Assembly (NCBI GenBank): GCA_009693505.1
Contig: SHXD01000001.1
Span: 1-64,000, forward strand
Source: Limnohabitans sp.
GTDB taxonomy: Bacteria; Pseudomonadota; Gammaproteobacteria; Burkholderiales; Burkholderiaceae_C
Direction of reading: 5' to 3'
DNA length: 64,000 bases
Shown: piece after piece, positions 1,634 through 26,821 of the stretch
Numbering within the stretch: the first letter of the stretch is position 1
Layout of the letters: each line of letters starts with the position of its first letter
Notes under the pieces: generated by a model
Seen by the model: only the letters and a program-made list of their open reading frames with translations
Database searches by the model: none
Told to the model about the DNA's origin: nothing
Translations under genes and position numbers: made by a program

Positions 1634-2743
1634 TTACTTCGTTAAAAACAAACGAGTCCAGTGCTGATTCCATTTCTCAGCCTCGTCAACCACGATACCT
1701 GGATCTGTCAGAACGTAATTGAAGTTGTTCAAGTTAGATTTCACTTTTTGACTGGCAGGTGGACGACCCATGCTGTTCAACAGCGCTTGTGCTTCAGGCG
1801 ACAGAATAAAGTCTGCCAACAACGCAGCGGCATGCGGGTGCGCTGCATTTCGTGCAACACCCACGCCTTGGGGCCGCGCCAATGTGGGCTCAATGGGCAC
1901 CCAATCGATGGGCGCGCCGCGCTGCTTCAAAGATTGGGCGTTGGCGTTGTAGATGGTCAACCCCACATCGGTCTCACCCGCCGCCACCATTTGCGCCAAC
2001 AAAATGTGACCTTTGCGCACATCTGGTTTTTGCTCTGACAATTTCCGGAAGAACGTCATGCCGCGTTGTTCGCCCAAAGCGTTCACCAAGCCGCCCATCC
2101 ACTCAGCGTCCGTCGATTCAATGGCAATTCGGCCTTTCCACTTGGGCTCTGTAAAGCCTTCGTAGTGTTTGGGCAAGTCTTCGCGTTTGACCTTTTGTGT
2201 GTTGAAAGCCACCACAAAAAAATTCACACGGTCAGGCATCCACATGCGGTGCTTCGGAATCATGCCTTGCGGTAAATCGGCAATGTGCGGACTGTGAAAT
2301 TCGGACAACATTTTTTCGCGTGCCAACATTTCCATCTCGGGCCCATTGGTTTCCACCACATCCACCGTATGGCGCTTGGCACGCCCTTCATTTACAACGC
2401 GCTGAACAACCCCATCACTTAAACCTCGCCACACTGTCACTTTGATGCCATACTTTTTTTCAAACTCTGCCATCAAAGGAACCGCCTCGGTTGGGGCCAA
2501 TGAGGTGTAAAGCGTGACGGCGCCTTCTTTGCGTGCACGCTCTAAAAGCCAAGCCTCGCGATCTGGTGCCTTGTTCATGAAAATGGCATCGTGTGGGCCA
2601 CTGTTTTGGGCCGCCGGTGTTTGAGCCCATGACGGCACGCTCATGAAAGCTGAGACCAGGCAAAGCGCAAGCCTGCGCAAAATTGCTTTTGAAGTTTTCA
2701 AATCTCGATCAAAACAAACTTGCTGCATGAAGTTCTCCTTCAA
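1634..2743 (-). CDS. Extracellular solute-binding protein of Fe3+-type ABC transporter
   Basis: Signal peptide; EGAVTLYTSLAPTEAVPLMAEFEKKYGIKVTVWRG and PKWKGRIAIE motifs; paralogous to ORFs at 15265 and 16401. Confidence 0.85.
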   Translation of the reverse strand: MKENFMQQVCFDRDLKTSKAILRRLALCLVSAFMSVPSWAQTPAAQNSGPHDAIFMNKAPDREAWLLERARKEGAVTLYTSLAPTEAVPLMAEFEKKYGIKVTVWRGLSDGVVQRVVNEGRAKRHTVDVVETNGPEMEMLAREKMLSEFHSPHIADLPQGMIPKHRMWMPDRVNFFVVAFNTQKVKREDLPKHYEGFTEPKWKGRIAIESTDAEWMGGLVNALGEQRGMTFFRKLSEQKPDVRKGHILLAQMVAAGETDVGLTIYNANAQSLKQRGAPIDWVPIEPTLARPQGVGVARNAAHPHAAALLADFILSPEAQALLNSMGRPPASQKVKSNLNNFNYVLTDPGIVVDEAEKWNQHWTRLFLTK

Positions 2744-5124
2744 ACTGAGGTCAAGATGGATTTCACACGTGCAGGGTTCATGGGTGCTTGGCGCATCCGG
2801 ACACCCGTGGCATCAAAAAATGCATTGGCTACCGCTGCTGGTACCACGCGGCAGGTGGCTTCGCCCGCCCCTGTAGGCGGGGCTTCTGGTCGGTTGATTA
2901 ACACAATGTCAATTTCTTCAGGAGCGTCTTTGATGTCCAAAATGGGGTAGCTGTTCCAATCGACACTTTTGACTTTGTCGGGCGCAAACTGCACCTCTTC
3001 AAAAATAGTTCTGGACAGTGCTTGGACCAGCCCACCTTCAATCGTGTAACGCAAACCTTGTGGGTTCACAATCAAGCCGCAATCGTGTGCCACTGTGAAT
3101 TTACGGCCCCAAATTCGACCTGTCTTGCGGTCCACTTCAACCTCTGCAACAACCGCCACAATGGTGCCTGCGCGTTGTGCGTAAGCAATGCCACGGCCAC
3201 TCAAAATAGGGCCGCGTCGGTCTCGTTTGGCATTGCCGCGAGGCTCCCAACCCGACTTTTCGGCAGCCGCTTTGAGCACCGCAATGTCTCTGGGCGCCTT
3301 GGCATATTTCACGCGGAATGCAACAGGATCTTCGCCAGTGGCGTAGGCCAATTCATCAATGAACTGCTCACTTGCAAATTGAATTTGCAAACCCACTGGA
3401 TCGCGCAAGTGTGAGGTTCGCATGGGCGAAGCGCTGGCAATCAAATCGGGAATGACTTCCCATGCCAACATTTTGTTGTCAAAGGCATAGCTTTCCTCAG
3501 GCGTGCCAAAAGTGATGCCGCCCTTGGGTGGCAAACCCAACTCCATGCCCACCAAACTGTCCCTTGGATCTGACTCGTTGCTGTCAATGGTGGCGCGCGA
3601 GAAAGCGCGGGTTGTGAAATCGTAGGCCACCACTTTGCCAGAGGCATCAATGGCAGCACGTGCGCGGTGCACCGATGCGGGCGCTTTTGGATCCCAGGCT
3701 GTGCCATCGTGTCGCATGCCTTGCACGCGCACAGGCTGCCCCACCATTTTTGAAATCATGGCAGCGTCCAAGATGGCATCACCTGCATCGTTGCGACCGT
3801 ACGAGCCTGGACCTTGGACCCAGAAGGCCTCAACCGTTTCTACGGGCACCTTCAGCAGCGCCGCCACGCCATCGCGTGCGTAATGGGGTTTTTGCGAGCC
3901 TGTCCAAATGGTGATTTTGTCTGCTTTCACATCGGCCACGGCGCTGGCCGGGCCCATGCTAGCGTGCGATTGGAAAGGCCATAAATATTCAGCCTCCACC
4001 ACCTTCACTGCCGACTTCAAGGCCGCGGCCACATCACCGTTTTTGATGTCCTCAGAACGCTTACGCGTTGGCGCTTGGCGAATGTGCTCATGCAGTTTTT
4101 CAAACTCAGGAAATGGTTTGCTGTTGGCCACCCAAGTGACCTTCAATTCCTTGGCAGCCTTCACGGCGTCCCACTCACGCTCGGCCACCACAGCCAAAAA
4201 ATTCTTTTCCCGCACCACGCGGGCACCCTTGATGTGCTTGATCGAAGACTCGTCCACCTTCTCTGCAAGACCCCCTGCAACAGGTGTGCGAATCACACGC
4301 GCATGCAACATACCAGGCACTCTCACATCTGCAATATTGCCTTCAGTGCCAAAGACTTTCCACGCCACATCGTTGCGCGGCAAAGACAATCCCACCACTT
4401 TGTATTCAGAGGGCAGCTTGGGTTTGGCCACGCCTTTGACATCCAACGGATTGCCAATTCGTTTGTTCCATTCCACTTTTGAATTGAAGTACTTACCGCC
4501 GATCAGTTCTGCATAAGAAACTTTCTGCGCTTCGTTACCTTTGACAGAAATGACGCCGTCGAAAATACTCAAATTAGCAACGGGCACATTCAGTTTTTCA
4601 GATGCCAAATTAAGCAAAATGCGGCGCGCCTCTGCAGCTGCATTGCGAAGCGGTTTGGCACCACCCTGAATACCCAAAGCGCTGGAGGCACCGCCCTGAT
4701 TCAAAGAAGTGGCTGAATTGCCCATCACAATTTTGACTTTGCGATAAGACACGTCTAACTCTTCCGCCACGATTTGCGCAATGGCCACATCCAAACCCTG
4801 CCCCAAATCAACTTTGCCGTAATAGGCCACCACGTTGCCATCGGGTTGGATCGCCACCCAAGAATCTAGCTCTTCTGCTTTCAAAGCTGGCTTGACGTTG
4901 CTGATGGTGGCCAAGGTGGTACCGATGGCCCCAGCTGAACTGGCGGCCGCGTTGGCTGGTGCTTGCGCAAGGGCTTCAATAGGCAAGCTGCCACTTGCCA
5001 CCGAAACGACCAATGCGCCAGCTGCACTTAAAAAATCGCGCCTTGAAGTACCGCTGACAAATTCAGGCTTGTCTTGTTTCAAATCCATTGGATGGGCGAT
5101 GTCTTGATTGAGCTTGTGTGTCAT
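2740..5124 (-). CDS. Xanthine dehydrogenase-family molybdopterin-binding subunit (isoquinoline/aldehyde oxidoreductase beta type), Tat signal
   Basis: 794 aa; Tat signal SRRDFLSAAGALVVS; GKVDLGQGLDVAIAQIVAEELDV, WVQGPGSYGRNDAGDA, GAGEATCRVVPAAVANA motifs. Confidence 0.92.
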   Translation of the reverse strand: MTHKLNQDIAHPMDLKQDKPEFVSGTSRRDFLSAAGALVVSVASGSLPIEALAQAPANAAASSAGAIGTTLATISNVKPALKAEELDSWVAIQPDGNVVAYYGKVDLGQGLDVAIAQIVAEELDVSYRKVKIVMGNSATSLNQGGASSALGIQGGAKPLRNAAAEARRILLNLASEKLNVPVANLSIFDGVISVKGNEAQKVSYAELIGGKYFNSKVEWNKRIGNPLDVKGVAKPKLPSEYKVVGLSLPRNDVAWKVFGTEGNIADVRVPGMLHARVIRTPVAGGLAEKVDESSIKHIKGARVVREKNFLAVVAEREWDAVKAAKELKVTWVANSKPFPEFEKLHEHIRQAPTRKRSEDIKNGDVAAALKSAVKVVEAEYLWPFQSHASMGPASAVADVKADKITIWTGSQKPHYARDGVAALLKVPVETVEAFWVQGPGSYGRNDAGDAILDAAMISKMVGQPVRVQGMRHDGTAWDPKAPASVHRARAAIDASGKVVAYDFTTRAFSRATIDSNESDPRDSLVGMELGLPPKGGITFGTPEESYAFDNKMLAWEVIPDLIASASPMRTSHLRDPVGLQIQFASEQFIDELAYATGEDPVAFRVKYAKAPRDIAVLKAAAEKSGWEPRGNAKRDRRGPILSGRGIAYAQRAGTIVAVVAEVEVDRKTGRIWGRKFTVAHDCGLIVNPQGLRYTIEGGLVQALSRTIFEEVQFAPDKVKSVDWNSYPILDIKDAPEEIDIVLINRPEAPPTGAGEATCRVVPAAVANAFFDATGVRMRQAPMNPARVKSILTSV

Positions 5125-5133
5125 GTGATCTCC

Positions 5134-5598
5134 TTAAGCCATCAAGGTTTGAGCGCGCTTGATGGCGCGCAAGATGGAGACATGCGTGCCGCAGCGGCAC
5201 TTCAAACCATCGAGTGCTGTTTTGATTTCAGCATCGGTGGCTTTGGGATTTTTCTTCAAAAATGCGGCAGAGGTCATGACCCAGCCATTGATGCAATGGC
5301 CGCATTGCGGCACTTGCTCTTCTAAAAATGCCACTTGAATGGGATGCGGTTTTTCGGGGGTGCCTAGGCCTGCAAGGGTGGTCACTTTTTTGCCCTTCAC
5401 TGCCGATACAGGCATGACACACGAACGCACCGCTTGGCCGTCGATGTGCACCGTGCATGCGCCACATTGGGCCAGGCCGCAGCCAAATTTTGGATTGTTC
5501 ATTTTCAGATCATCGCGCAATGCGTAAAGCAATGGCATTTGCGGATCGCTGTCGATTTGGACGGGTTTGCCGTCTACTTGAAAGGGTGTTAAAGCCAT
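5134..5598 (-). CDS. (2Fe-2S)-binding small subunit of molybdenum hydroxylase
   Basis: 154 aa; KFGCGLAQCGACTVHIDG and QCGHCINGWVMTSAA...CRCGTH cysteine motifs of the CoxS/IorA type. Confidence 0.93.
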   Translation of the reverse strand: MALTPFQVDGKPVQIDSDPQMPLLYALRDDLKMNNPKFGCGLAQCGACTVHIDGQAVRSCVMPVSAVKGKKVTTLAGLGTPEKPHPIQVAFLEEQVPQCGHCINGWVMTSAAFLKKNPKATDAEIKTALDGLKCRCGTHVSILRAIKRAQTLMA

Positions 5599-5619: not shown

Positions 5620-6630
5620 TCAGTCTTCTGAAAGCATTTCATCCAAAGCGGCCACCAGTGCGCGCTGCAATTCCGGGTCTTGGCTGGAGTGCCCTGCTGT
5701 GTGCACCACACGCAGCTTACCAAGTGGCCACACTTGCTTGAGTTGCCAGGCTGTTTCGGCAGGGGTCACCATGTCGAATTGGCCTTGCACAATGGTGCCG
5801 GGTATGTCTTTGAGATAGCCATTGGGCGTGTTGGGCAGTACATGTCCGCGACTTCCCAAATCGGGATCATGCGCAAAAATGTGCGCCGATATTTTGGCCA
5901 TGGCCAAACATTGTCGTTCAGCTTCTGGCGAGACGTAGTCATTCAACGAGGGCTCACTAGGGTGCACGCTGCTAAGGGCATCTTCCCAAGCACACCAAGC
6001 TTTGGCCATGGCCAGCACTTGATCTTTTTTTTCACTTTTTAGCACACCGTCATAAGCGCGCAGCACCTCACACGATTGGCCTTGCGAACGCAGTTCTTTC
6101 AGTGGCGTGAGTGCTGAAATGGCTTCTACATAAGCTTGCCATTCCGCTCTGAAAACGCGAGACGCGCCGCCTTCTTTGTACAGCCAATCAAGCTCTTGAT
6201 CTTGCGCCGCAAAGACGCCGCGCAAGACCATGCCTGTGACACGGCTTGTGTATTTTTTAGCGTAGGCCAGTGCCAATGTGCACCCCCACGAGCCACCGCA
6301 CAACAGCCATTTGTCAATGCCTAGCAAAACTCGAAGTTGCTCAAGATCAGCAATCAGGTTGGTTAAAAAATTGTGTGCTGTTTCAGCGTGAGGCGTCGAT
6401 CTGCCGCAACCTCTTTGGTCCATCAAAATAATTCGGTACCGATGCGGGTCGAACAAACGTCTGGCGGTGGGTGTACAGCCACCGCCTGGGCCGCCATGCA
6501 AATACACCACGGGGCGACCTTTGGGGTTGCCGCACTCTTCCCAGTACACCTGATGGCCATGCCCTACAGCCATGTGGCCTGAATGGTGAGGGGTAATGGC
6601 GGGGTACAAAGGGGTCAACAAAAGGCTCAT
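5620..6630 (-). CDS. pip: Proline iminopeptidase-like alpha/beta hydrolase
   Basis: YLHGGPGGGCTPTARRLFDPHRYRIILMDQRGCGRS...LCGGSWGCTLALAYA; start MSLLLTPLYP overlaps upstream EutA-like stop (ATGA). Confidence 0.85.
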   Translation of the reverse strand: MSLLLTPLYPAITPHHSGHMAVGHGHQVYWEECGNPKGRPVVYLHGGPGGGCTPTARRLFDPHRYRIILMDQRGCGRSTPHAETAHNFLTNLIADLEQLRVLLGIDKWLLCGGSWGCTLALAYAKKYTSRVTGMVLRGVFAAQDQELDWLYKEGGASRVFRAEWQAYVEAISALTPLKELRSQGQSCEVLRAYDGVLKSEKKDQVLAMAKAWCAWEDALSSVHPSEPSLNDYVSPEAERQCLAMAKISAHIFAHDPDLGSRGHVLPNTPNGYLKDIPGTIVQGQFDMVTPAETAWQLKQVWPLGKLRVVHTAGHSSQDPELQRALVAALDEMLSED

Positions 6631-8168
6631 GGTTGTAACGCCGTTCGGCCAAGTCCGCAAGTGCCAGGAAAAACCAAACTTTTGATCACCACGGGCACTG
6701 CGCCTGAAGTTTCAAGCATAGCGCCAATGTCAATGAAGTCCAACTCTTTAAGCGTGATGCCATCGATCGACAAGACCGGGCTGCTGATGTGCAACTCTTC
6801 GTGGCAATGAATGCCAACCAGGCCACCACAATCGGCCTCGCCCACCAACAGCAGGGGATGCCCTTGATTCAACACAGCCCTCATGCCTTGCACCACCGCA
6901 CGGCAGAAGGCGTCTAGTCTTTGAAAGGTGGCCGAGCCTTGCCAGCGATAGCACAAGGTAACGGCCTGTTCACCTTCGTGCAAATCCAAACGCCTGAGTG
7001 CACGTTGAATGTTCTCTGCAATGTCTTGAACGTTCAATGTGTCAGCTGTCAAATCCAATTGCGGCGCAATGACCGGCACATTGCGCAGCGGCAAAATACT
7101 GGCGGGCTCCACATAAATGGTGCTACCGCTCACCTGAATGGTGTACTGCGATGCGCCAATGACTGTGGCGCGTATGCCTTGATCTGGCACTTCGAGTCTG
7201 GGTCCCCATGTTTCTGCTTTGGCCCGAACTGCCTTGGCCAGCATTGGGCCTAAGTCGCCATAGACTTGCGTTTCTCTGCCGTAAACGTATTCTGAAACGC
7301 CGCCCGAAAACGTGAGCACGTCTGGCATTTTTTTCGCCAACAATGGCTCGAGCCTGAGCAAGGACTGGCTGATGGCGTCTGGTGTGGAGGTGCCAGCCAC
7401 TTCAAAGATTCTGTCGGCCATGCGCTCTACCATGCGTTCCAAATCTGCGGGTGCGACAATCTGACCTAATTGCAAATCGAGACCCACTTCTTGAGCAAAT
7501 CTTCGGCCAGCCTCTTCCAAACGAACCACAGCACCCTTGGCATCCAAAGCCAAAATGCGTGCGCCGATGTCCACCGCCGTCAGGTCAACCAACTCGCCGT
7601 TTTCACACACGGCAATTTTGGTAGTGCCACCGCCAATGTCGATGTTCATGACGCGTGCTGTTTCGCGCACGGAGCGTGCTGCGGCACCAGAACCAAAGGC
7701 TGCGAGCGTGGTTTCTAGTGCATCGCCTGCACTGACCGATACAAACTTACCTGCTTGCGCTGCAAACAAATCTGCAATGGCGCGCGAATTACTTCTGCGC
7801 ACGGCCACACCCGTGAGAATCAAAGCACCCGTGTCAATTTTGCCGGGCTCAATGCCAGCTTGTTCATATTGCGCGTGAATGAATTCGCCCAAAGCCTTCG
7901 CATCAATGCTTTGATCTGATGCATAAGGCGTGAGCAGCACATCAGATTCATGCAGCACGGTGCGCTCGCTCACGATGTAACGATTGTCTAAGCGCTCCAG
8001 CACCAGTCTGGAAAAAACCAAGTGGGACGTGGACGAGCCAATGTCAACGCCCACACTGACCAAAGTAATTTCATCTTCGCCCTCCAAACTGCGGCGAACA
8101 TTGCTGAAAAAAACGCGCCCGCCAACAGGTGCATCCTGCTGTTTGGGTGCGTTCACGTTGTTACGCAT
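6627..8168 (-). CDS. EutA-like ethanolamine ammonia-lyase reactivase family ATPase (copy 1)
   Basis: VGVDIGSSTSHLVFSRLVLERL..., ALILTGVAVRR, MNIDIGGGTTKIAV, TFSGGVSEYVY; actin-like ATPase fold motifs; paralog of 25022..26821. Confidence 0.8.
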   Translation of the reverse strand: MRNNVNAPKQQDAPVGGRVFFSNVRRSLEGEDEITLVSVGVDIGSSTSHLVFSRLVLERLDNRYIVSERTVLHESDVLLTPYASDQSIDAKALGEFIHAQYEQAGIEPGKIDTGALILTGVAVRRSNSRAIADLFAAQAGKFVSVSAGDALETTLAAFGSGAAARSVRETARVMNIDIGGGTTKIAVCENGELVDLTAVDIGARILALDAKGAVVRLEEAGRRFAQEVGLDLQLGQIVAPADLERMVERMADRIFEVAGTSTPDAISQSLLRLEPLLAKKMPDVLTFSGGVSEYVYGRETQVYGDLGPMLAKAVRAKAETWGPRLEVPDQGIRATVIGASQYTIQVSGSTIYVEPASILPLRNVPVIAPQLDLTADTLNVQDIAENIQRALRRLDLHEGEQAVTLCYRWQGSATFQRLDAFCRAVVQGMRAVLNQGHPLLLVGEADCGGLVGIHCHEELHISSPVLSIDGITLKELDFIDIGAMLETSGAVPVVIKSLVFPGTCGLGRTALQP

Positions 8169-9394
8169 TATTTTTTCGGTCCAAACTTTTCCATGAACTC
8201 AGCGGGAATGTTGTACCAATCGGGGTCCATGCGATCAGGCACGCTGTTGCGCTTCAAGAGTTCTTGGTACTCTTTGCGAATGTGCGGATCTTCCAACCAA
8301 TACGGAATGGTGGTGCCGCCCTCGGTCACGTCTTGGGCGGTGTAGTCAGTGTGCTTAGAGCCGGGTGCGCCAGGATCGCGGCCAGGATTGTGCGGACCAA
8401 ACCAAGCGGTCAAGCGCAAGGCCTCATCGCCCGAACTGAAATGTTGGTGATACCAACGTGCGCCGCCAGGTGCCGCAGACACCAAACCAACCGGCTCGTA
8501 ATCAATGCGGCGCACCAAATGTTCTTTGCCATCTTTCCAAGGTGTTTCACCTTCGTCTTCTGGCCAGGTGTAGGTGTAGCCCTTGCCATTCAAGCAGATG
8601 AGCACTGCAGCTGAAGTGTGCGCGTGTGCCCTTGAATATCGGCCGTTCTCGTGTTGACCAATCCAAAAGTAAAAACAGTTGTTGGTCATGAAGGGCTCAA
8701 TCCGGCGATAGCCAGGTGAGCGGCGATTGTCCAAAGGCAACTCGCACTTCATCACATCGGGAATGAAGTTGGTTTTGCGCATGGCCAAACCGCGCACAGG
8801 GTCGGCTTCCACCTCATCGCGCGCTTGGTAAAAATCATCGGCACCATTGAAGCGATCACGGAACACGAAGGGGTTGTTGAAAACAGCTTCTGTGCTTTGC
8901 AACATGTTCAAGACATTGGGCGCGGTGGTGCCGGCTAGCAATAAGGCGCCACTTGAAGTGGCATTCACAATGCGGTGCCAAGCATTGATGGGAATCGAAA
9001 ACATCGAACCTGCTTGCCATTCAAACACGTGCTTCTTGGTGTCACCTTCTTGCCAGACTTCGGTGGTGCCGCGTCCTTCAACAACCAAGTAGATTTCTTC
9101 GTACATGTGCTTTTCAGGGTGTAAGGCACCGGCACCTGGCACTTCAACCACGTAGCAGCCCCACTTGGTTTCTGTACCGTACAACTGAATGAAATGGCCC
9201 TTACCGCCAGTTCGCTTCCAAGGCACCAAGGGCAGGTTTTGAACCTTGTTAATGCCCACATCGCGAAATACGGGCAAACCTTCTGATTCCATGAATGCGT
9301 CATAAGGCGTGGGTTGTTTTTTGAATACGCCATAGCCGGCTTTTTTGTGACCCGCTGGCTCGTGCCAATGGCTGGTGTCTTTGTCGTGTGGCAT
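8168..9394 (-). CDS. Cupin-domain protein, ~408 aa, probably bicupin
   Basis: LHPEKHMYEEIYLVVEGRGTTEVW...FEWQAGSMFSIPINAWHRIVNA and GRYSRAHAHTSAAVLICLNGKGYTY...WYHQHFSSGDEALRLTAW. Confidence 0.8.
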   Translation of the reverse strand: MPHDKDTSHWHEPAGHKKAGYGVFKKQPTPYDAFMESEGLPVFRDVGINKVQNLPLVPWKRTGGKGHFIQLYGTETKWGCYVVEVPGAGALHPEKHMYEEIYLVVEGRGTTEVWQEGDTKKHVFEWQAGSMFSIPINAWHRIVNATSSGALLLAGTTAPNVLNMLQSTEAVFNNPFVFRDRFNGADDFYQARDEVEADPVRGLAMRKTNFIPDVMKCELPLDNRRSPGYRRIEPFMTNNCFYFWIGQHENGRYSRAHAHTSAAVLICLNGKGYTYTWPEDEGETPWKDGKEHLVRRIDYEPVGLVSAAPGGARWYHQHFSSGDEALRLTAWFGPHNPGRDPGAPGSKHTDYTAQDVTEGGTTIPYWLEDPHIRKEYQELLKRNSVPDRMDPDWYNIPAEFMEKFGPKK

Positions 9395-11091: not shown

Positions 11092-11454
11092 ATGAAAATG
11101 ACTTTTGTAAATTTAAGCGTGTTGGCCAGCGTCGCCTCCTGTGCGCTTGCCAGTGCGGCCGATTTGGAAGCAGCCAAAAGAGGCGAAACGCTCTATATGC
11201 AACACCAATGCTACAGCTGCCATGGCACCCAAGGACAAGGTGGTGAGCGCAATGCGGGGCCCAAAATTTTTCCGAACCCTACGCCCTTTGTGGCGTTTGA
11301 ATTGCAAATGCGCACACCCCGCAACGTGATGCCCCGTTATTCCGTGCAAAACATCAACGCTATGCAGTTGAAAGATTTGTATGCGTTTATGGAAAACATG
11401 CGCACCAGCCCTGCTGTTGCACAAATTCCATTGCTCAGCAATGCAATGCGCTGA
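11092..11454 (+). CDS. Periplasmic monoheme c-type cytochrome
   Basis: Signal peptide MKMTFVNLSVLASVASCALASAADLEAAKRGETLYMQHQCYSCHGTQGQGG; CxxCH heme motif; distal Met. Confidence 0.85.
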   Translation: MKMTFVNLSVLASVASCALASAADLEAAKRGETLYMQHQCYSCHGTQGQGGERNAGPKIFPNPTPFVAFELQMRTPRNVMPRYSVQNINAMQLKDLYAFMENMRTSPAVAQIPLLSNAMR

Positions 11455-11648: not shown

Positions 11649-11692
11649 TCTGCATAAAAATGCAAGTCAAGTTGACACTTGATCAGTGATCT

Positions 11693-11992
11693 TCAAAGCA
11701 ATACCCCGTTCTCTTTGACCATGTCGTGAATTGGAAAGTGCTTCAAATTAGGCGCATCGATGAGCACGTCAACTTTTCTGCCGTACATGCACTTCGACAC
11801 CTTTGTGGCTAGCTTGATCATCAAGCCAGCGGGGTCATTCACAGGCTCAGTGAGTTGAAGCATCAGATCAACATCACCGCCGCGAGATGTTTCATTGATA
11901 CGAAATCCAAACAATCAAACAGGCGCAACATGCCCTACAACCTCTAAGGTTGCATCACGAATGGCTTGGACTTGATATTCTGTGAGGCGCAT
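11693..11992 (-). pseudogene. Remnant of minimal nucleotidyltransferase (MntA-like) with in-frame TGA
   Basis: Reverse frame: MRLTEYQVQAIRDATLEVVGHVAPV*LFGFRINETSRGGDVDLMLQL...FPIHDMVKENGVLL*; the stop sits where the conserved Trp of VWLFGSR normally lies (TGG to TGA). Confidence 0.75.
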
Positions 11993-12030: not shown

Positions 12031-13974
12031 TCAGCGCGCCTGGCAAACTACATCCAACAATGCAGGACGTCCCTTTTTCACTTCAGCCAACGCGCGCTGA
12101 AGTGCACCTTTAAGTTGCGCTGGGTCTTTGATGGGGCCCTCGGCCCAAACACCATGGCCTTGTGCAATTTTGGCGTAATCAATATCCGGGTTGCGCAAGC
12201 TGTTGCCAATCCAAGCCTGATCTGTGCGGCGGTTGTGCAAGGCAGCCATGCGCTGCAAGTGCATCACTTCTTGGTAATAGCCACCGTTGTTGTGCATGAC
12301 CATGAGTAATGGAATCTTGTGATGCGCAGCGGTCCACAGTGCGCCTGGTGCGTACAACAAGTCGCCGTCGGGCTGAAAAGTCACAGTCATTCGGCCGAGC
12401 GCTTTGTTGGCCAATGCGGCACCCACTGATGCCGGTAATCCATATCCCACACCTTGTCCGCCAGAGCCACCCAACATTTGGTGGTACTCGGTGGTGGGCC
12501 ACAACTTGCGAGCCCAAGAAATACGGTCGCTCACGGCCAAACACCAAGGCTCGTTTTTGATCACTTCGTATGTTTCCATGGCCAAGCGCGCTGTGCTGAT
12601 GGGTGAGGCATCCCAAGCCAATGCGGCACCTTCCTTGGCGTCTTGCAACTGCTTGTCCCAGCGTTTTTTCATGGGTTCACGGCGCGCTTCAAAGCTGGTT
12701 TTTTGCGCTGCTGTTGAATTTTTCAAAATGTAGTCGGTGAGAATGGGCATGGACGCTTGCGCCTCACCAGGTATGGCCATCTCTACTGACAAAAATCTTT
12801 GAAAGTCTTGGTAGTTGGAACGAATGGACACATCGTTCATGCCAATGGTGATAATTTTCACATCAGGCTTGGCTTCGGGGCGAACTGTTTTAAAGGGGTC
12901 ACTCAAGCCATTGACTTGGCCCCAAGGGTCGTACACCTCGAGCATCAAAATCACATCGGCGTCGCGCACCAAGGCGCGCTTTTGATCACTCAAGCACAGA
13001 TGGTGCGTGCTGGGAAAATTCATGCGCGCGCCTAAATCAACCACGGGGGCTTGCAAGCTTTCTGCCAATTTCACCAAAGCCTTGACACCCTCTTGATTGC
13101 GCGTTGCGCGGTCGGCCAGGATGACGGGGTTCTTGGCATTCAACAAAAGCTTGGCGGCTTCTTGCAGTGCGCCTGTATCGCCTTGCAGGGGTAGTGCGGG
13201 CCGCAGCTTGGGAATGCTGGGTGGCTTGCCATGAATGGCGTCTTCTTGCAGATCAATGTCGGCCATGATGACCACGGGCCCCATTTGTCCAGTGGTGGCC
13301 ACACGGTAGGCACGCACGGTAGATTCTGCAAAGTGTTGCAAAGAGCCTGGTGCGTCATCCCACTTGAGGTAGTCGCGCAACATCAAGGCCGGATCTTGTA
13401 CCGAGTGCGACCATTCCGTGCCAGGCCGGCGCTTGTCGGCATCGATGCCATTGCCACCAAACATGATGACAGGCACCCGATCGCACCAAGCGTTGTACAC
13501 AGCCATGGCCGCATGCTGAAAACCCACACTGCCGTGCGCCATGACGGCCATGGGCTTGCCTGATGCTTTGGCATAACCGTGGGCAATGGCCACTGAAGAC
13601 TCTTCGTGCAAACAGGTGATGAGCTCAGGGCTCTTGTTGCCACCGTAATTAACCAAGGACTCGTGCAAACTTCTAAAACTTGAGCCAGGGTTAGCGGCCA
13701 CATATTCCAAGTTCAAACTCTTGATCACATCGACCATGAAATCGGATCCGGGGCGCGGAATCAGGCGGCCGCTTTCCACAGCCTTTGCATCCACATCACT
13801 GAGCTTGGCTGCAGCAGCATTGACAGCGGGGGCAGCCGCTTGAGCTTGCTGAACCATGGCCACACCCGCAGCGGAAGCCGTAGCCACACCTTTGAGAAAA
13901 TCACGACGGCCGGAGCTTGCTTCTGATGTTTCAGATTCTGAGCCAGCGTTTGAAGGCTTATTGTGTTCAAGCAT
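12031..13974 (-). CDS. Thiamine-diphosphate-dependent enzyme (acetolactate synthase/benzoylformate decarboxylase-like) with Tat signal
   Basis: GRRDFLKGVATASAAGVAMVQQAQAAAP N-terminus; CLHEESSVAIAHGYAKASGKP (catalytic Glu region); PDGDLLYAPGALWTAAHHKIPLLMVMHNN (ThDP/Mg site). Confidence 0.85.
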   Translation of the reverse strand: MLEHNKPSNAGSESETSEASSGRRDFLKGVATASAAGVAMVQQAQAAAPAVNAAAAKLSDVDAKAVESGRLIPRPGSDFMVDVIKSLNLEYVAANPGSSFRSLHESLVNYGGNKSPELITCLHEESSVAIAHGYAKASGKPMAVMAHGSVGFQHAAMAVYNAWCDRVPVIMFGGNGIDADKRRPGTEWSHSVQDPALMLRDYLKWDDAPGSLQHFAESTVRAYRVATTGQMGPVVIMADIDLQEDAIHGKPPSIPKLRPALPLQGDTGALQEAAKLLLNAKNPVILADRATRNQEGVKALVKLAESLQAPVVDLGARMNFPSTHHLCLSDQKRALVRDADVILMLEVYDPWGQVNGLSDPFKTVRPEAKPDVKIITIGMNDVSIRSNYQDFQRFLSVEMAIPGEAQASMPILTDYILKNSTAAQKTSFEARREPMKKRWDKQLQDAKEGAALAWDASPISTARLAMETYEVIKNEPWCLAVSDRISWARKLWPTTEYHQMLGGSGGQGVGYGLPASVGAALANKALGRMTVTFQPDGDLLYAPGALWTAAHHKIPLLMVMHNNGGYYQEVMHLQRMAALHNRRTDQAWIGNSLRNPDIDYAKIAQGHGVWAEGPIKDPAQLKGALQRALAEVKKGRPALLDVVCQAR

Positions 13975-15268
13975 GTGAGTCTTCCTTTGAATGGGCGGGA
14001 ATCCAAACCACCATGATGTTGGCAATGATGATGGTGGCGGCTAACAAATAAAACGCTGCCAGCAGACCATACTGGTCCGCCACGATGCCGCCCAAAATGG
14101 GAGCAATGGCTTGTGCGCCTGATTGCATGCCGAACATCAAACCGATGGCTGTGCCGCCCATGTTTTTAGGTGTGGCATCTAGCATCCAGGCCTGCATGAT
14201 GGGCCGGGCTGCATAAAGGAAGAATCCCAACACGGCAATCAGAAACACAAACCAAGGCGAGCCGCCTGCAAAGGTCATGAGCAACAAGACCACGCCGCTC
14301 ATGCCAAACGACACCATCAAAATGTTCTTGCGCCCCATGGTGTCAGACAGATGACCTGCAATGGGCGCGGCGATAAAGCCTGTGAGTTGCAACAAGGCCA
14401 TGCCAGCGCCAACCCAAAACACGTTGTAATGCATTTCATTGGCCAAATACAAGGGCAAGAAGGTAAGCAAAGTGCCTTGCGTCATCGATCTGAAACCAGA
14501 GCTCAGGGTTAGCAAAAACAAGCCAGGTGTTTGCATCAAGGTGCGAAGTCCTGCAACATAGCTGCGCATGCTCTGGCCTTTTGAATCTGCGGCAGGTGAA
14601 GTATTTGCAGTATTTGCAATATTTGCATCGTTGACTTCAACTGAAGTTTTTGCTTTTGACTTGGGTGCAAATGTCATGGTGCCCAAGAAAAACAAAATAA
14701 GCATGGACATGGCAGCGCCCGGCACCACATTGAGCACCACAATTTCGCGCCATGACAAGGTGGTCAAAAGTGCACCCACCGCCAAGGGTGCCAGCGCATC
14801 ACCCACATTGCCCCCCATGCCGTGCAATGACAGTGCCAAACCCTTGCGCTTGGGAAACATGCTGCCCAACAAAGGAATGGCAGTGGGGTGCCACAAATTG
14901 TTGCCAATGCCCACCAGCATCACGCAGATGAGCAGCATCCAATACTGAGAACTGAAGCCCATCATGAGGTACGGGAAACCCACCCAAAAAAGCGAAAGGG
15001 CCATTAGCTGGCCCTTCTTACCCCACACATCCACCAGCATGCCGCCGGGGACATTTGAAAGTGCACCCGCAGCATATTGGCACGTCATGATGAAGCCAAT
15101 TTGGCTGTAGTTAAGCCCCATTTCATTGCCAATGAGAGGCAACAACATGAAAAATGTTGCGGGGTACCAGTGTGTTAACGAATGGCCCAGCGTAATGAGC
15201 CCCATGTTGCGGATGTCCAGCTTGGACATCGGCACTGCGCCATCCGCAGTGGCTTGCGAGGTACTCAT
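13967..15268 (-). CDS. MFS transporter
   Basis: 433 aa, multiple TM segments, GHLSDTMGRKNILMVSF and VDVWGKKGQLMAL MFS loop motifs. Confidence 0.88.
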   Translation of the reverse strand: MSTSQATADGAVPMSKLDIRNMGLITLGHSLTHWYPATFFMLLPLIGNEMGLNYSQIGFIMTCQYAAGALSNVPGGMLVDVWGKKGQLMALSLFWVGFPYLMMGFSSQYWMLLICVMLVGIGNNLWHPTAIPLLGSMFPKRKGLALSLHGMGGNVGDALAPLAVGALLTTLSWREIVVLNVVPGAAMSMLILFFLGTMTFAPKSKAKTSVEVNDANIANTANTSPAADSKGQSMRSYVAGLRTLMQTPGLFLLTLSSGFRSMTQGTLLTFLPLYLANEMHYNVFWVGAGMALLQLTGFIAAPIAGHLSDTMGRKNILMVSFGMSGVVLLLMTFAGGSPWFVFLIAVLGFFLYAARPIMQAWMLDATPKNMGGTAIGLMFGMQSGAQAIAPILGGIVADQYGLLAAFYLLAATIIIANIMVVWIPAHSKEDSHA

Positions 15269-17481: not shown

Positions 17482-18597
17482 CTAGGATTTAGGGGGAAGT
17501 GTCGGTAATTCCGCCTCGTAGGCTTCTTCCATGCGTGGCGTCATGCCGTGCTTGGCCAAAGACTCCTCGAAACGCGTGCGAACCGCCTGACTTTCGTCAG
17601 CATAATCAATTTGGTCGCCGCCCACACGGCGGCTGATCCAAGCCTTAGGCACGCCTTGGGCATTTCGAATCGACACCACCTCGTGCTTAAAAGCAAGGTA
17701 TCGTGCGGGAGTTTGCCCCGTATTGAAATGCTGGTGGAGCCACATGTTGGGCGGTACGATCATGGCGCCCACTTCCCAATCGTACTGACGGGGCTCCTCG
17801 CCTTCAGGCCACATCAAGCTGTAGCCTTCACCGCTCAAAATAATCACGTGGGCGCCTGGGCCGTGGCAATGGGCCTTTTTGTAGGTACCTACCGGGAATT
17901 GAGAGATGTGACTGTTCATGGAGCCACGCGCCATGTTGAAACGAATGTGTCCGCCACCGGCACCGCGCTCTTTGGCGCTGATGAGTGGCAAGTTGACGGC
18001 ATCGGCCACAAAATTGGTTTCCAGCAGCAAACCTTTTTGCTCGCCCTTGCCACTGAAGTAATCTGGCTCGCCATTGAAGCGATTGGCAAAGTCGTGTTTC
18101 GTGTTAAACACAAAGTTCAAATCTTCGTACAAGTTAATGACGGGTGGGCCATTGGTCACAGCCACAAAACGCGCAGCATCTTTGCCTGAACCGTTGAAGT
18201 GTTGGTGCATGCAGTTCAAAGGAATCGCAAACAAGGCACCTGCTTGCCACTCAAATGTGATGCGATGGCCTTCGTCATTCCAGACCGTGGTTGAACCGCG
18301 GCCAGACAACACATAAATCATCTCTTCAAAAATTTGACGCTGCGGCTCAAGCTGCTTGCCTGGCGCAATTTCGCACACGTAGCAATCGTTGGAAGTGCGT
18401 GAGGCTTCGTGATTGATGTAAACGCCTTTGCCGCCGCGGCGCGCCCAAGGCTTCAAATCAACCGTGTTCAGACTGCGAATGTAATGGGCACTGATGATGT
18501 CCAAACCTTCGTTTTTGACCCAACGGGTATAGGGTGTTTCTTTTTCAGTTGCAAATTTGGAAGCAAGGTCTTCCGATACGAGTGCGTCTTTAGCCAT
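17482..18597 (-). CDS. Cupin-domain protein (bicupin)
   Basis: LEPQRQIFEEMIYVLSGRGSTTVWNDEGHRITFEWQAGALFAIPLNCMHQHFNGSG and YKKAHCHGPGAHVIILSGEGYSLMW. Confidence 0.82.
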   Translation of the reverse strand: MAKDALVSEDLASKFATEKETPYTRWVKNEGLDIISAHYIRSLNTVDLKPWARRGGKGVYINHEASRTSNDCYVCEIAPGKQLEPQRQIFEEMIYVLSGRGSTTVWNDEGHRITFEWQAGALFAIPLNCMHQHFNGSGKDAARFVAVTNGPPVINLYEDLNFVFNTKHDFANRFNGEPDYFSGKGEQKGLLLETNFVADAVNLPLISAKERGAGGGHIRFNMARGSMNSHISQFPVGTYKKAHCHGPGAHVIILSGEGYSLMWPEGEEPRQYDWEVGAMIVPPNMWLHQHFNTGQTPARYLAFKHEVVSIRNAQGVPKAWISRRVGGDQIDYADESQAVRTRFEESLAKHGMTPRMEEAYEAELPTLPPKS

Positions 18598-18656: not shown

Positions 18657-19253
18657 TTATTTGCGCAAATATTTCAAAATTGCTTCGCCATCCAAGGTGA
18701 TGGAGGGATCAAACTCTGGCGCGTTCTCAATTTGCTCCAAGTCATTCAAGCCGCAATATTTGAAAATGCGGTTGATGGAAGAAATTAAGCGCACAGGGTG
18801 ATCAGGATCTGCGTTGAAGTGTTGGTGAATGGTGTTTGGTGGAATGTAAATCACATCACCCGCTTCCCACTCATAACGTTTGATTTCGTCTTGAGGCTTC
18901 CAGTGGTACGTGTCTGTAATTTCCACGTCGCAATCTTGATGCAAGTCGTAGCCTCGGCCTTCGAGCACATACACGCACTCTTCAGCCAAGTGGCGGTGCT
19001 TGCCCGACTTGCTGCCGGGTGGAATGATTTGCATGTAAGCATCGACAGTTTCGATGCGCGTGTTCATGGACTCATTCAGCAAGTGCTTGAGCAAACCTTG
19101 GCGCGCCATTTCCCATGGCATGTCTTCGGGGCGTACCACTTTGTGGCGCTTGGAATTGCGCGCAGGCATTTGCTCTGCGTCGTCCAAGAGACCTTGGTAA
19201 TACTTGCCTTGTTGGTTGCCTTGCAACCATGATTTTGATTCGTCCCAAGCCAT
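18657..19253 (-). CDS. Cupin-domain protein (single domain)
   Basis: Likely start MAWDESKSWL at 19253; GSKSGKHRHLAEECVYVLEGRGYDLHQD...YEWEAGDVIYIPPNTIHQHFNADPDHPVRL. Confidence 0.83.
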   Translation of the reverse strand: MAWDESKSWLQGNQQGKYYQGLLDDAEQMPARNSKRHKVVRPEDMPWEMARQGLLKHLLNESMNTRIETVDAYMQIIPPGSKSGKHRHLAEECVYVLEGRGYDLHQDCDVEITDTYHWKPQDEIKRYEWEAGDVIYIPPNTIHQHFNADPDHPVRLISSINRIFKYCGLNDLEQIENAPEFDPSITLDGEAILKYLRK

Positions 19254-19254
19254 C

Positions 19255-19857
19255 TCAGTAGCCTCCCTTTGGATGGTTAAAGTCTTCTTCGTCGTTGCGC
19301 GCCACAAAGCCTTCGCCGCCAGGTGCGGGCTCGCTTGGGCGTGGTTCGACTTGGTGCTGGAACAACATGTTCATGAACATGTACATGGGCTTGGTTTTGA
19401 TGACCAAGGCACGGGCGGGGCGCTCGTTGCTGGCATTGAAGTGTTGGTGTACGCAGTTGTTGTGAACAACGGCAATGTCGCCAGCTTTCCAGTCGTAGCG
19501 AATGCCGTCATGAATTTCGTAGCCTGTGCCATCCAAAATATAGAACGCAGCTTCGTTCACGTGCCCGTGCTTTTGTGAGTTGCCGCCAGGGCCATACTCT
19601 TCCAAGTGCATGTGAAAGGTTTGTGTGATGCCATCTTTGGGCTCCACATAGTGACGGCTAAATGCTTGAGGGCCATCGTTGAATTTGATGTCCTTGCCTT
19701 TGCGCACGCGGGGCATGGCGCGCAAACGCTTCAATTCATCGCCTAAGTTGTAGGGGCCGGCAATGGCGCGTACAAAGGTGCGATCTTTTTTACTGTGGTA
19801 GTGCGACTCATTGGGAACGAATTCCGTAGAGGGCGCTTTTTTGTCATCAGCACTCAT
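19255..19857 (-). CDS. Cupin-domain protein (single domain)
   Basis: GGNSQKHGHVNEAAFYILDGTGYEIHDGIRYDWKAGDIAVVHNNCVHQHFNASNERPARALVIKTKP. Confidence 0.83.
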   Translation of the reverse strand: MSADDKKAPSTEFVPNESHYHSKKDRTFVRAIAGPYNLGDELKRLRAMPRVRKGKDIKFNDGPQAFSRHYVEPKDGITQTFHMHLEEYGPGGNSQKHGHVNEAAFYILDGTGYEIHDGIRYDWKAGDIAVVHNNCVHQHFNASNERPARALVIKTKPMYMFMNMLFQHQVEPRPSEPAPGGEGFVARNDEEDFNHPKGGY

Positions 19858-25021: not shown

Positions 25022-26821
25022 ATGAGCAGCGAAGACATTAAAAACAAACACAGCGTCCACGACCACCAATATGGCGCTGACACGTATCACACACACGATG
25101 GCGAAGCAGACCATGACCACGATCATGATTTTGCCGGCGACGATCCGTCACAAGAATCTTTGTGGCGCCAAGACAATGTGACCCTGCACAGCGTGGGCAT
25201 TGATGTGGGCTCTTCAGGCACGCAGGTGGTCTTTTCGCGCATTCACTTAAGGCGCATTGCAGAAGACTTGTCGAGCCGCTACACCGTGGTCGAGCGCACC
25301 GCGCTGTATCAATCGCCCATTTCTTTAACGCCTTATTTGAGCGACAGTTTGATGGACGCCAAAGCACTGGGCGCCATCATTGACAAGGCTTACCAAGAGT
25401 CGGGTTTGCACCCCGATGAAATTGATGCCGGTGCCGTCATTTTGACGGGCGAGGCGCTGCGGCGCGAAAACAGCGAATCGATTGCGGCTGTGTTGGCAGA
25501 GCAAGGCGGCGAGTTTGTATGCGCCACAGCCGGCCACCACATGGAAGCCATGCTGGCTGTGTACGGCTCTGGTGCGGCCAAACGGTCTTACGATGACAAG
25601 CACCGTATCTTGAACATCGACATTGGTGGCGGCACCACCAAGCTCGGACTGGTTCAAAACGGCGAACTTGTTGCCACGGCCGCTGTGCATTTGGGCGGAC
25701 GCCTGTTGGTGGTGGATGAAAAAAACATTCTGACTCGACTCGATCCGGCCGGTGCTTACTTGGCCAAACAAGCTGGCTTCAACTGGAAGTTGGGCGATCA
25801 AGTCACCCGTCAAGAATTGGCCACCGTGGCCCAGTGGATGGCCGACGCACTGGTGCGCGTGCTCACTCAAACGTTTTCACGCGAAGATTTGTCTAATTTG
25901 TATTTAACCGACCCCGTCGACGACTGGGGCCAACTCGACGGCATCATGTTCTCGGGCGGTGTGGGTGAGTATGTTTACCGCCGCGAGATGCGCGACTTTG
26001 GCGATCTGGGCAAATTGTTTGGTGAAGCGGTACGCCAACGTTTGGACCAAAATGCCGTGCCCGTGGCATTGTTGCCAGCGGGTGAGTGCATTCGTGCCAC
26101 TGTTTTAGGCGCTTCTGAATACAGTGTGCAATTGAGTGGCAACACCACCTTCATTTCTGAACCTGCAGCGCTTCTGCCGCGCAAAAATTTGCAGGTCATT
26201 CCTTTGAACCTAGAGTTGAAAGACCACATTGATTCTGCAGAAATTGTCAGTGCATTGAGCAAGTCTTTCAAAAGACACGATCTGGTCGAGGGTGCGCAAG
26301 ATGTGGCCATCTCATTGCGTTGGTTGGGCGCACCTTCTTTTGTTCGCATGAATGCTTTGGCGCAAGGCATTCTCAATGGCCTGCCCGAAACTTTGAAACA
26401 ACAGCGTCATTTGTACATCGTGACCGATGGCGACATTGCGCACAATTTGGGGCATCTCTTTAAAGAAGACGAGCGCGTGAAGTGCGAAGTCTTGGTCATT
26501 GATGGCGTCACTTTGTGGGGCTTTGACTTTGTCGACCTAGGACGTATTCGCATGCCTTCATGGACTGTGCCTGTCACTGTCAAATCCTTGGTCTTCAATG
26601 AAGATCCCCGCGCGCATGGCAAGTCCGATCCTGGTGAATGGCACGCCCACGAAGACGGCAAGATGCACCGCCATGATCACAACAAGGCCCATTCTCATGG
26701 ACATGGGCACTCTCATGACCATGACCACAGTCACGCCCACGATCATTCACATGGGCACGCTCACGGCCACTCACACGACACACAACACGCTCTGAATTTG
26801 GCCCACAAAAACAAGCCCTAA
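25022..26821 (+). CDS. EutA-like reactivase-family ATPase with His-rich N- and C-termini (copy 2)
   Basis: VGIDVGSSGTQVVFSRIHLRRI, ILTGEALRRENSESIAAVLAEQGGEF, LNIDIGGGTTKLGLVQNGEL, MFSGGVGEYVYRRE; C-terminus HAHEDGKMHRHDHNKAHSHGHGHSHDHDHSHAHDHSHGHAHGHSHDTQH. Confidence 0.82.
   Translation: MSSEDIKNKHSVHDHQYGADTYHTHDGEADHDHDHDFAGDDPSQESLWRQDNVTLHSVGIDVGSSGTQVVFSRIHLRRIAEDLSSRYTVVERTALYQSPISLTPYLSDSLMDAKALGAIIDKAYQESGLHPDEIDAGAVILTGEALRRENSESIAAVLAEQGGEFVCATAGHHMEAMLAVYGSGAAKRSYDDKHRILNIDIGGGTTKLGLVQNGELVATAAVHLGGRLLVVDEKNILTRLDPAGAYLAKQAGFNWKLGDQVTRQELATVAQWMADALVRVLTQTFSREDLSNLYLTDPVDDWGQLDGIMFSGGVGEYVYRREMRDFGDLGKLFGEAVRQRLDQNAVPVALLPAGECIRATVLGASEYSVQLSGNTTFISEPAALLPRKNLQVIPLNLELKDHIDSAEIVSALSKSFKRHDLVEGAQDVAISLRWLGAPSFVRMNALAQGILNGLPETLKQQRHLYIVTDGDIAHNLGHLFKEDERVKCEVLVIDGVTLWGFDFVDLGRIRMPSWTVPVTVKSLVFNEDPRAHGKSDPGEWHAHEDGKMHRHDHNKAHSHGHGHSHDHDHSHAHDHSHGHAHGHSHDTQHALNLAHKNKP

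Follow-up and report, generated by a model that had tools for sequence, protein, structure and literature searches.

Introduction

Members of the thiamine diphosphate (ThDP)-decarboxylase superfamily are normally cytoplasmic. Benzoylformate decarboxylase (BFD) is a cytoplasmic enzyme that pairs with benzaldehyde dehydrogenase. Oxidation of the Breslow intermediate with the aid of an electron carrier is carried out by other ThDP enzymes, PoxB (pyruvate:quinone oxidoreductase) and pyruvate:ferredoxin oxidoreductase. As to the twin-arginine (Tat) route, the glucose-fructose oxidoreductase of Zymomonas is exported with its bound organic cofactor NADP, judging from the reference list of a review on Tat (PMC6708511), and ThDP is not among the Tat-carried cofactors named in that review. 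A search of the open-licence full-text literature yielded no description of an exported ThDP enzyme or of a ThDP-cytochrome c gene pair.

The window studied here is a stretch of 64,000 nucleotides from a Limnohabitans sp. contig. One of its genes had been predicted, from the sequence, to encode a ThDP enzyme that is exported by Tat.

The ThDP enzyme and its fold

The features at this locus are the following.

12031 to 13974, minus strand: ThDP-dependent enzyme with an N-terminal Tat signal, 647 amino acids (open reading frame, Pfam TPP N, M and C domains, family motif RRxFL)
13837 to 13974, minus strand: predicted Tat signal peptide, residues 1-46 (from the sequence; R23, R24 and F26 invariant; low model confidence)
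13967 to 15268, minus strand: MFS transporter, overlapping the start of the ThDP gene

The reading frame of the ThDP gene is intact and starts at an ATG at position 13974, which is preceded by the Shine-Dalgarno-like GGAAG. This start lies inside the 3' end of the MFS transporter gene and overlaps its stop, so that the two genes are likely to be translationally coupled. An MFS gene stands beside the ThDP gene in 8 of 82 loci, all of them in the nearest clade.

The Pfam domains TPP_enzyme_N, _M and _C were found in this order in the 647-residue protein, all above cut-off and with E-values of 1e-14 to 1e-20. An AlphaFold2 model that was built from a 65-sequence family alignment had a mean pLDDT of 86.7 and a pTM of 0.87, with low confidence for the linker and, as expected, for the leader. 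By Foldseek, the part of the model outside leader and linker matched structures of acetolactate synthase, BFD, benzaldehyde lyase and 2-hydroxyacyl-CoA lyase, with a fold match at an E of about 1e-31 that places it in the ThDP-decarboxylase superfamily; pyruvate oxidase was absent from the top 50 fold matches. The protein did not reach the equivalog cut-offs of NF005485 (BFD; 160 bits versus 493) and TIGR00118 (acetolactate synthase large subunit; 124 bits versus 538), nor the curated cut-off of NF006203 (thiamine pyrophosphate-requiring protein; 248 bits versus 456). Therefore, none of these names fits. The original prediction had called the protein acetolactate synthase/BFD-like, which holds as a superfamily label and not as a statement of its specific chemistry, since the NCBIfam equivalog cut-offs are widely missed.

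The catalytic residues are largely preserved. The cofactor-activating glutamic acid E124 is present in 80 of 81 aligned Tat-type sequences and the Mg ligands D536 and N563 of the GDG...NN motif, of which the first glycine is replaced, are present in 81/81. Together with H147 these three residues are kept in nearly all Tat-type and sister sequences. S98, E124 and H147 correspond to the active-site residues S26, E47 and H70 of BFD and are kept, whereas by eye a clear counterpart of BFD His281 was not seen near residues 345-351, where the alignment is weak.

The Tat leader is conserved throughout the family

The leader reads MLEHNKPSNAGSESETSEASSGRRDFLKGVATASAAGVAMVQQAQA, followed by AAP, and has its twin arginines at residues 23-24. 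The N-terminus, SSGRRDFLKGVATASAAGVAMVQQAQA, is that of a textbook Tat leader with the core SGRRDFLKG...QAQA, and signal cleavage is probable after AQA at residue 46. By sequence and by conservation it shows the (S/T)RRxFLK motif, a weakly hydrophobic h-region and the AxA pattern. In the 65-sequence alignment R23, R24 and F26 are invariant and the linker that follows them is unconserved.

In a scan of 84,980 species genomes 233 relatives came up, and the top 80 of these were retained. The close-family set comprised 81 members, counting the gene of the window itself and another copy that comes from a genome of the same genus. An RRxF(L/I) motif ahead of the ThDP domain was detected in a first pass in 75 of these 81. 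Three of the six misses (L042, L049 and L089) are genes truncated by the contig, and the other three (L064, L068 and L084) proved to have the leader once the frame was read from mid-match. Two plasmid-borne relatives with about 41-48% identity (L118 and L119) were added later. With genes cut by a contig edge excluded, RRxF(L/I) was thus found in all 80 testable members, at about 41-100% identity. According to the record titles the hosts are Beta-, Alpha- and Gammaproteobacteria, Acidobacteria and Rokubacteria, single taxon names needing care because many records are metagenome bins. A class-wide draw of 185 genomes contained only one further strong relative, and the family is therefore sparse. 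The Tat-type sequences (n = 82) formed one side of a single branch with an SH-aLRT of 98, in a tree made by a quick method and with some long branches.

Homologues that begin downstream of the twin arginines exist only in a separate sister clade of 18 relatives with 34-42% identity, in which the leader is absent (0/18), and not within the family itself. The leader as an artefact of start choice is rejected in view of this absence together with its conservation in the family; the leader predicted for the ATG at 13974 is confirmed as no chance match. The window's genome contains a TatC gene. From the conservation of the leader and its co-inheritance with a periplasmic cytochrome c (see below) we strongly infer that the ThDP enzyme is exported by Tat in its folded, cofactor-loaded form, in agreement with the original prediction.

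A small cytochrome c accompanies the Tat-type enzyme

11092 to 11454, plus strand: mono-haem c-type cytochrome with a Sec-type signal and the motif CYSCHG (Pfam Cytochrome_CBB3), member of the conserved partner family

When neighbouring open reading frames were clustered without preselecting a partner, a small c-type cytochrome ranked top. With a profile of this family, 79 of the 83 non-redundant Tat-type loci proved to have a member close to the ThDP gene; in 76/83 it lies less than 1 kb away, and in 61/83 it follows the ThDP gene immediately, in the same orientation and with the haem domain no more than 250 bp off. At locus L040 the distance is about 5 kb. Of the four loci that lack it, L107 is situated at a contig end and L046, L072 and L095 are real exceptions with adequate flanks. 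On an alphaproteobacterial contig (L096, 5249-12822, plus strand) three Tat-ThDP enzyme-cytochrome c gene pairs follow each other in tandem, and on plasmid p3 of the annotated isolate Caballeronia zhejiangensis a TPP-binding protein gene is followed after a gap of 8 bp by that of a c-type cytochrome. The arrangement in the window is looser, the two genes being convergent and about 580 bp apart, whereas in the nearest relative the gap is 39 bp. An apparent remnant of a nucleotidyltransferase-like gene, recognized by eye at 11690-11980 on the minus strand, lies between them and may account for the wider spacing.

The cytochrome family was found in 0/18 sister loci and 0/22 more distant ThDP loci. 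For this contrast Fisher's test gave a p of about 2e-16, for loci that share ancestry and are thus not independent. Likewise, in a set of 60 related genomes only 4 have the cytochrome family, and these are the 4 that encode the Tat enzyme, at about 90% identity (p = 2e-6, again with shared ancestry and hence without independence); one of the four has some 5 kb between the two genes. In most Tat loci enzyme and cytochrome are the sole conserved pair. As judged by gene neighbourhood, the conserved partner of the Tat-ThDP enzyme is cytochrome c alone.

The sister clade, annotated as 'thiamine pyrophosphate-binding/requiring protein' and closest to NF006203 among the NCBIfam models, shares H123, E124, H132, H147, H154, D536 and N563 with the Tat family. 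It differs by the lack of both leader and cytochrome and by an aldehyde dehydrogenase gene that adjoins the ThDP gene in 13 of 18 loci, versus a single Tat locus. Its cytoplasmic enzyme probably releases an aldehyde, which an NAD-dependent aldehyde dehydrogenase would then oxidize.

A second lineage of ThDP enzymes with a Tat leader

L033 (6260-8206, plus strand), L032 (2000-3943, minus strand) and L138-L140 encode a remote ThDP enzyme, of about 25% identity, that has a leader of its own, SRRGFL. It comes from relatives and has no strong match in the window's genome. In L032, L033, L138 and L140 its gene is flanked on both sides by genes for small proteins with a CxxCH motif; the contig of L139 shows the downstream one only. 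The downstream protein is a cytochrome c by Pfam, the upstream one has no Pfam match, and at the threshold used both fall outside the cytochrome family that goes with the main lineage. Because this lineage stands apart from the main one in the tree, exported ThDP enzymes probably became paired with a cytochrome c twice. The other matches, L141-L143, contained no further Tat-ThDP lineage.

Mo-hydroxylase and other neighbouring genes

2740 to 5124, minus strand: large subunit of a Mo-hydroxylase, which has a Tat leader of its own, TSRRDFLSAAG (Pfam); not a conserved partner
5134 to 5598, minus strand: 2Fe-2S subunit of the Mo-hydroxylase (Pfam)

The ThDP enzyme had also been envisaged to work beside this Tat-dependent Mo-hydroxylase. 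The large subunit occurs in 14 of the 44 loci whose flanks exceed 5 kb on each side, which lends the idea local support; as an obligatory partner it is rejected for the family in general. The Mo-hydroxylase may cooperate locally with the ThDP enzyme.

UbiD was found in 14/82 loci and a UbiX-like flavoprotein in 7/82. In L073, L086, L088, L092 and L098 genes for UbiD, the UbiX-like flavoprotein and DUF4936 lie directly upstream of the Tat-ThDP/cytochrome pair, an arrangement that belongs to one freshwater betaproteobacterial clade and of which UbiD and the UbiX-like protein were confirmed by Pfam in L086. Carboxylate transporters, UbiD, UbiX-like flavoproteins and cupins near the Tat loci hint at organic acids, in a way that varies by clade. 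The substrate cannot be fixed from the context, because transporters (TctC, ABC, MFS), UbiD/UbiX and cupins all change between clades.

The window further holds two homologues of EutA-like reactivases (6627-8168, minus strand; 25022-26821, plus strand), one of which is followed by genes for a NicO-type nickel transporter and a CobW GTPase. An ethanolamine ammonia-lyase, which EutA might bring to mind, was ruled out as EutB was not found in the genome. EutA and a cupin gene recur beside ThDP genes of the exported as well as the cytoplasmic kind (L121). Four cupin genes are clustered on the minus strand of the window (8168-9394, 17482-18597, 18657-19307 and 19255-19857). Three of the four weakly resemble 5-aminosalicylate 1,2-dioxygenase, and ring-cleavage or sensing proteins are possible functions.

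A proposed periplasmic oxidoreductase and its alternatives

The reading that we consider rather probable is that the Tat-exported ThDP enzyme and its dedicated small cytochrome c constitute a periplasmic two-protein oxidoreductase for 2-oxo acids or aldehydes. Judging from the conserved leader, the enzyme would fold and bind ThDP and Mg in the cytoplasm and would then be exported by Tat in the folded state. Its substrate in the periplasm would be an aldehyde or a 2-oxo acid, the latter possibly of the aryl-glyoxylate kind, and attack on it would give a Breslow enamine, as suggested by the conservation of ThDP-binding and BFD-like residues. Two electrons would subsequently pass one at a time to cytochrome c and on to the respiratory chain, with release of the acid. 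This last step would replace the release of an aldehyde to an NAD-dependent aldehyde dehydrogenase and is proposed because of the exchange of partners, aldehyde dehydrogenase in the sister clade versus cytochrome c in the Tat clade. The simplest reading of this exchange is that the exported form, in a place where NAD is unavailable, hands its electrons to cytochrome c. Several points count against such an oxidoreductase. ThDP sites in this fold are buried; L046, L072 and L095 have no cytochrome gene nearby; the locus counts come from loci related by descent; and in the window the distant, convergent cytochrome gene is on a separate transcript.

Alternatively, the enzyme could be a non-oxidative periplasmic decarboxylase that frees an aldehyde. 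A separate dehydrogenase, for which the window has the Tat Mo-hydroxylase, would oxidize this aldehyde with cytochrome c as the acceptor. The Mo-hydroxylase in the cluster of the window and in 14/44 well-covered loci is consistent with this, as is the finding that BFDs are the closest solved relatives by sequence. It is nevertheless unlikely, since 30 of these 44 loci have no Mo-hydroxylase in the covered stretch while the cytochrome is nearly always present, and enzyme and cytochrome are the only pair conserved at most loci. A redox-neutral carboligase or lyase of the benzaldehyde-lyase or acyloin type, with the cytochrome serving another step of the regulon, would be in line with the Foldseek matches to benzaldehyde lyase, acetolactate synthase and 2-hydroxyacyl-CoA lyases. 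We regard it as quite improbable, given that the cytochrome stays constant while the neighbouring catabolic genes change between clades and that the aldehyde dehydrogenase of the sister clade suggests chemistry at the level of an aldehyde that is then oxidized. That the twin arginines are there by chance or do not work, and that the enzyme stays in the cytoplasm as is usual in its superfamily, hardly comes into consideration with RRxF invariant across about 41-93% identity and several phyla, missing in the sister clade, and linked to an exported cytochrome.

Beyond the oxidoreductase reading itself, we tentatively propose a new class, the periplasmic ThDP:cytochrome c oxidoreductases, in which a haem protein might oxidize the Breslow intermediate directly, without NAD, quinone or ferredoxin, and which would have arisen at least two times and spread through Proteobacteria, Acidobacteria and Rokubacteria. 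If this is true, ThDP would join the Tat cargo as an added class of cofactor, and freshwater and soil bacteria would have a new entry point into respiration for electrons taken, outside the cytoplasm, from keto acids or aldehydes. The two-gene system is directly testable, and isolates exist (C. zhejiangensis, Noviherbaspirillum humi and Limnohabitans sp. 15K).

Comparison with known systems

ThDP oxidoreductases are known; periplasmic ones that use cytochrome c are not, as far as was found in the open-licence literature. The best solved relatives are the BFDs of Pseudomonas putida (MdlC/BFD) and M. smegmatis (4q9d), with E-values of about 1e-28 for a single sequence and about 1e-37 for a profile. 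The order of the TPP N, M and C domains and the counterparts of S26, E47 and H70 are common to both, whereas identity over the fold match is about 22% and the Tat leader and cytochrome c partner are particular to the Tat enzyme. With PoxB and pyruvate:ferredoxin oxidoreductase the likeness is a functional analogy only, namely oxidation of the Breslow intermediate by way of an electron carrier; these are cytoplasmic, employ FAD/quinone or Fe-S clusters, and have neither a periplasmic cytochrome c nor a Tat leader. The glucose-fructose oxidoreductase of Zymomonas resembles the present enzyme in its Tat export with a bound organic cofactor, and differs from it in fold, in cofactor and in having no cytochrome partner.
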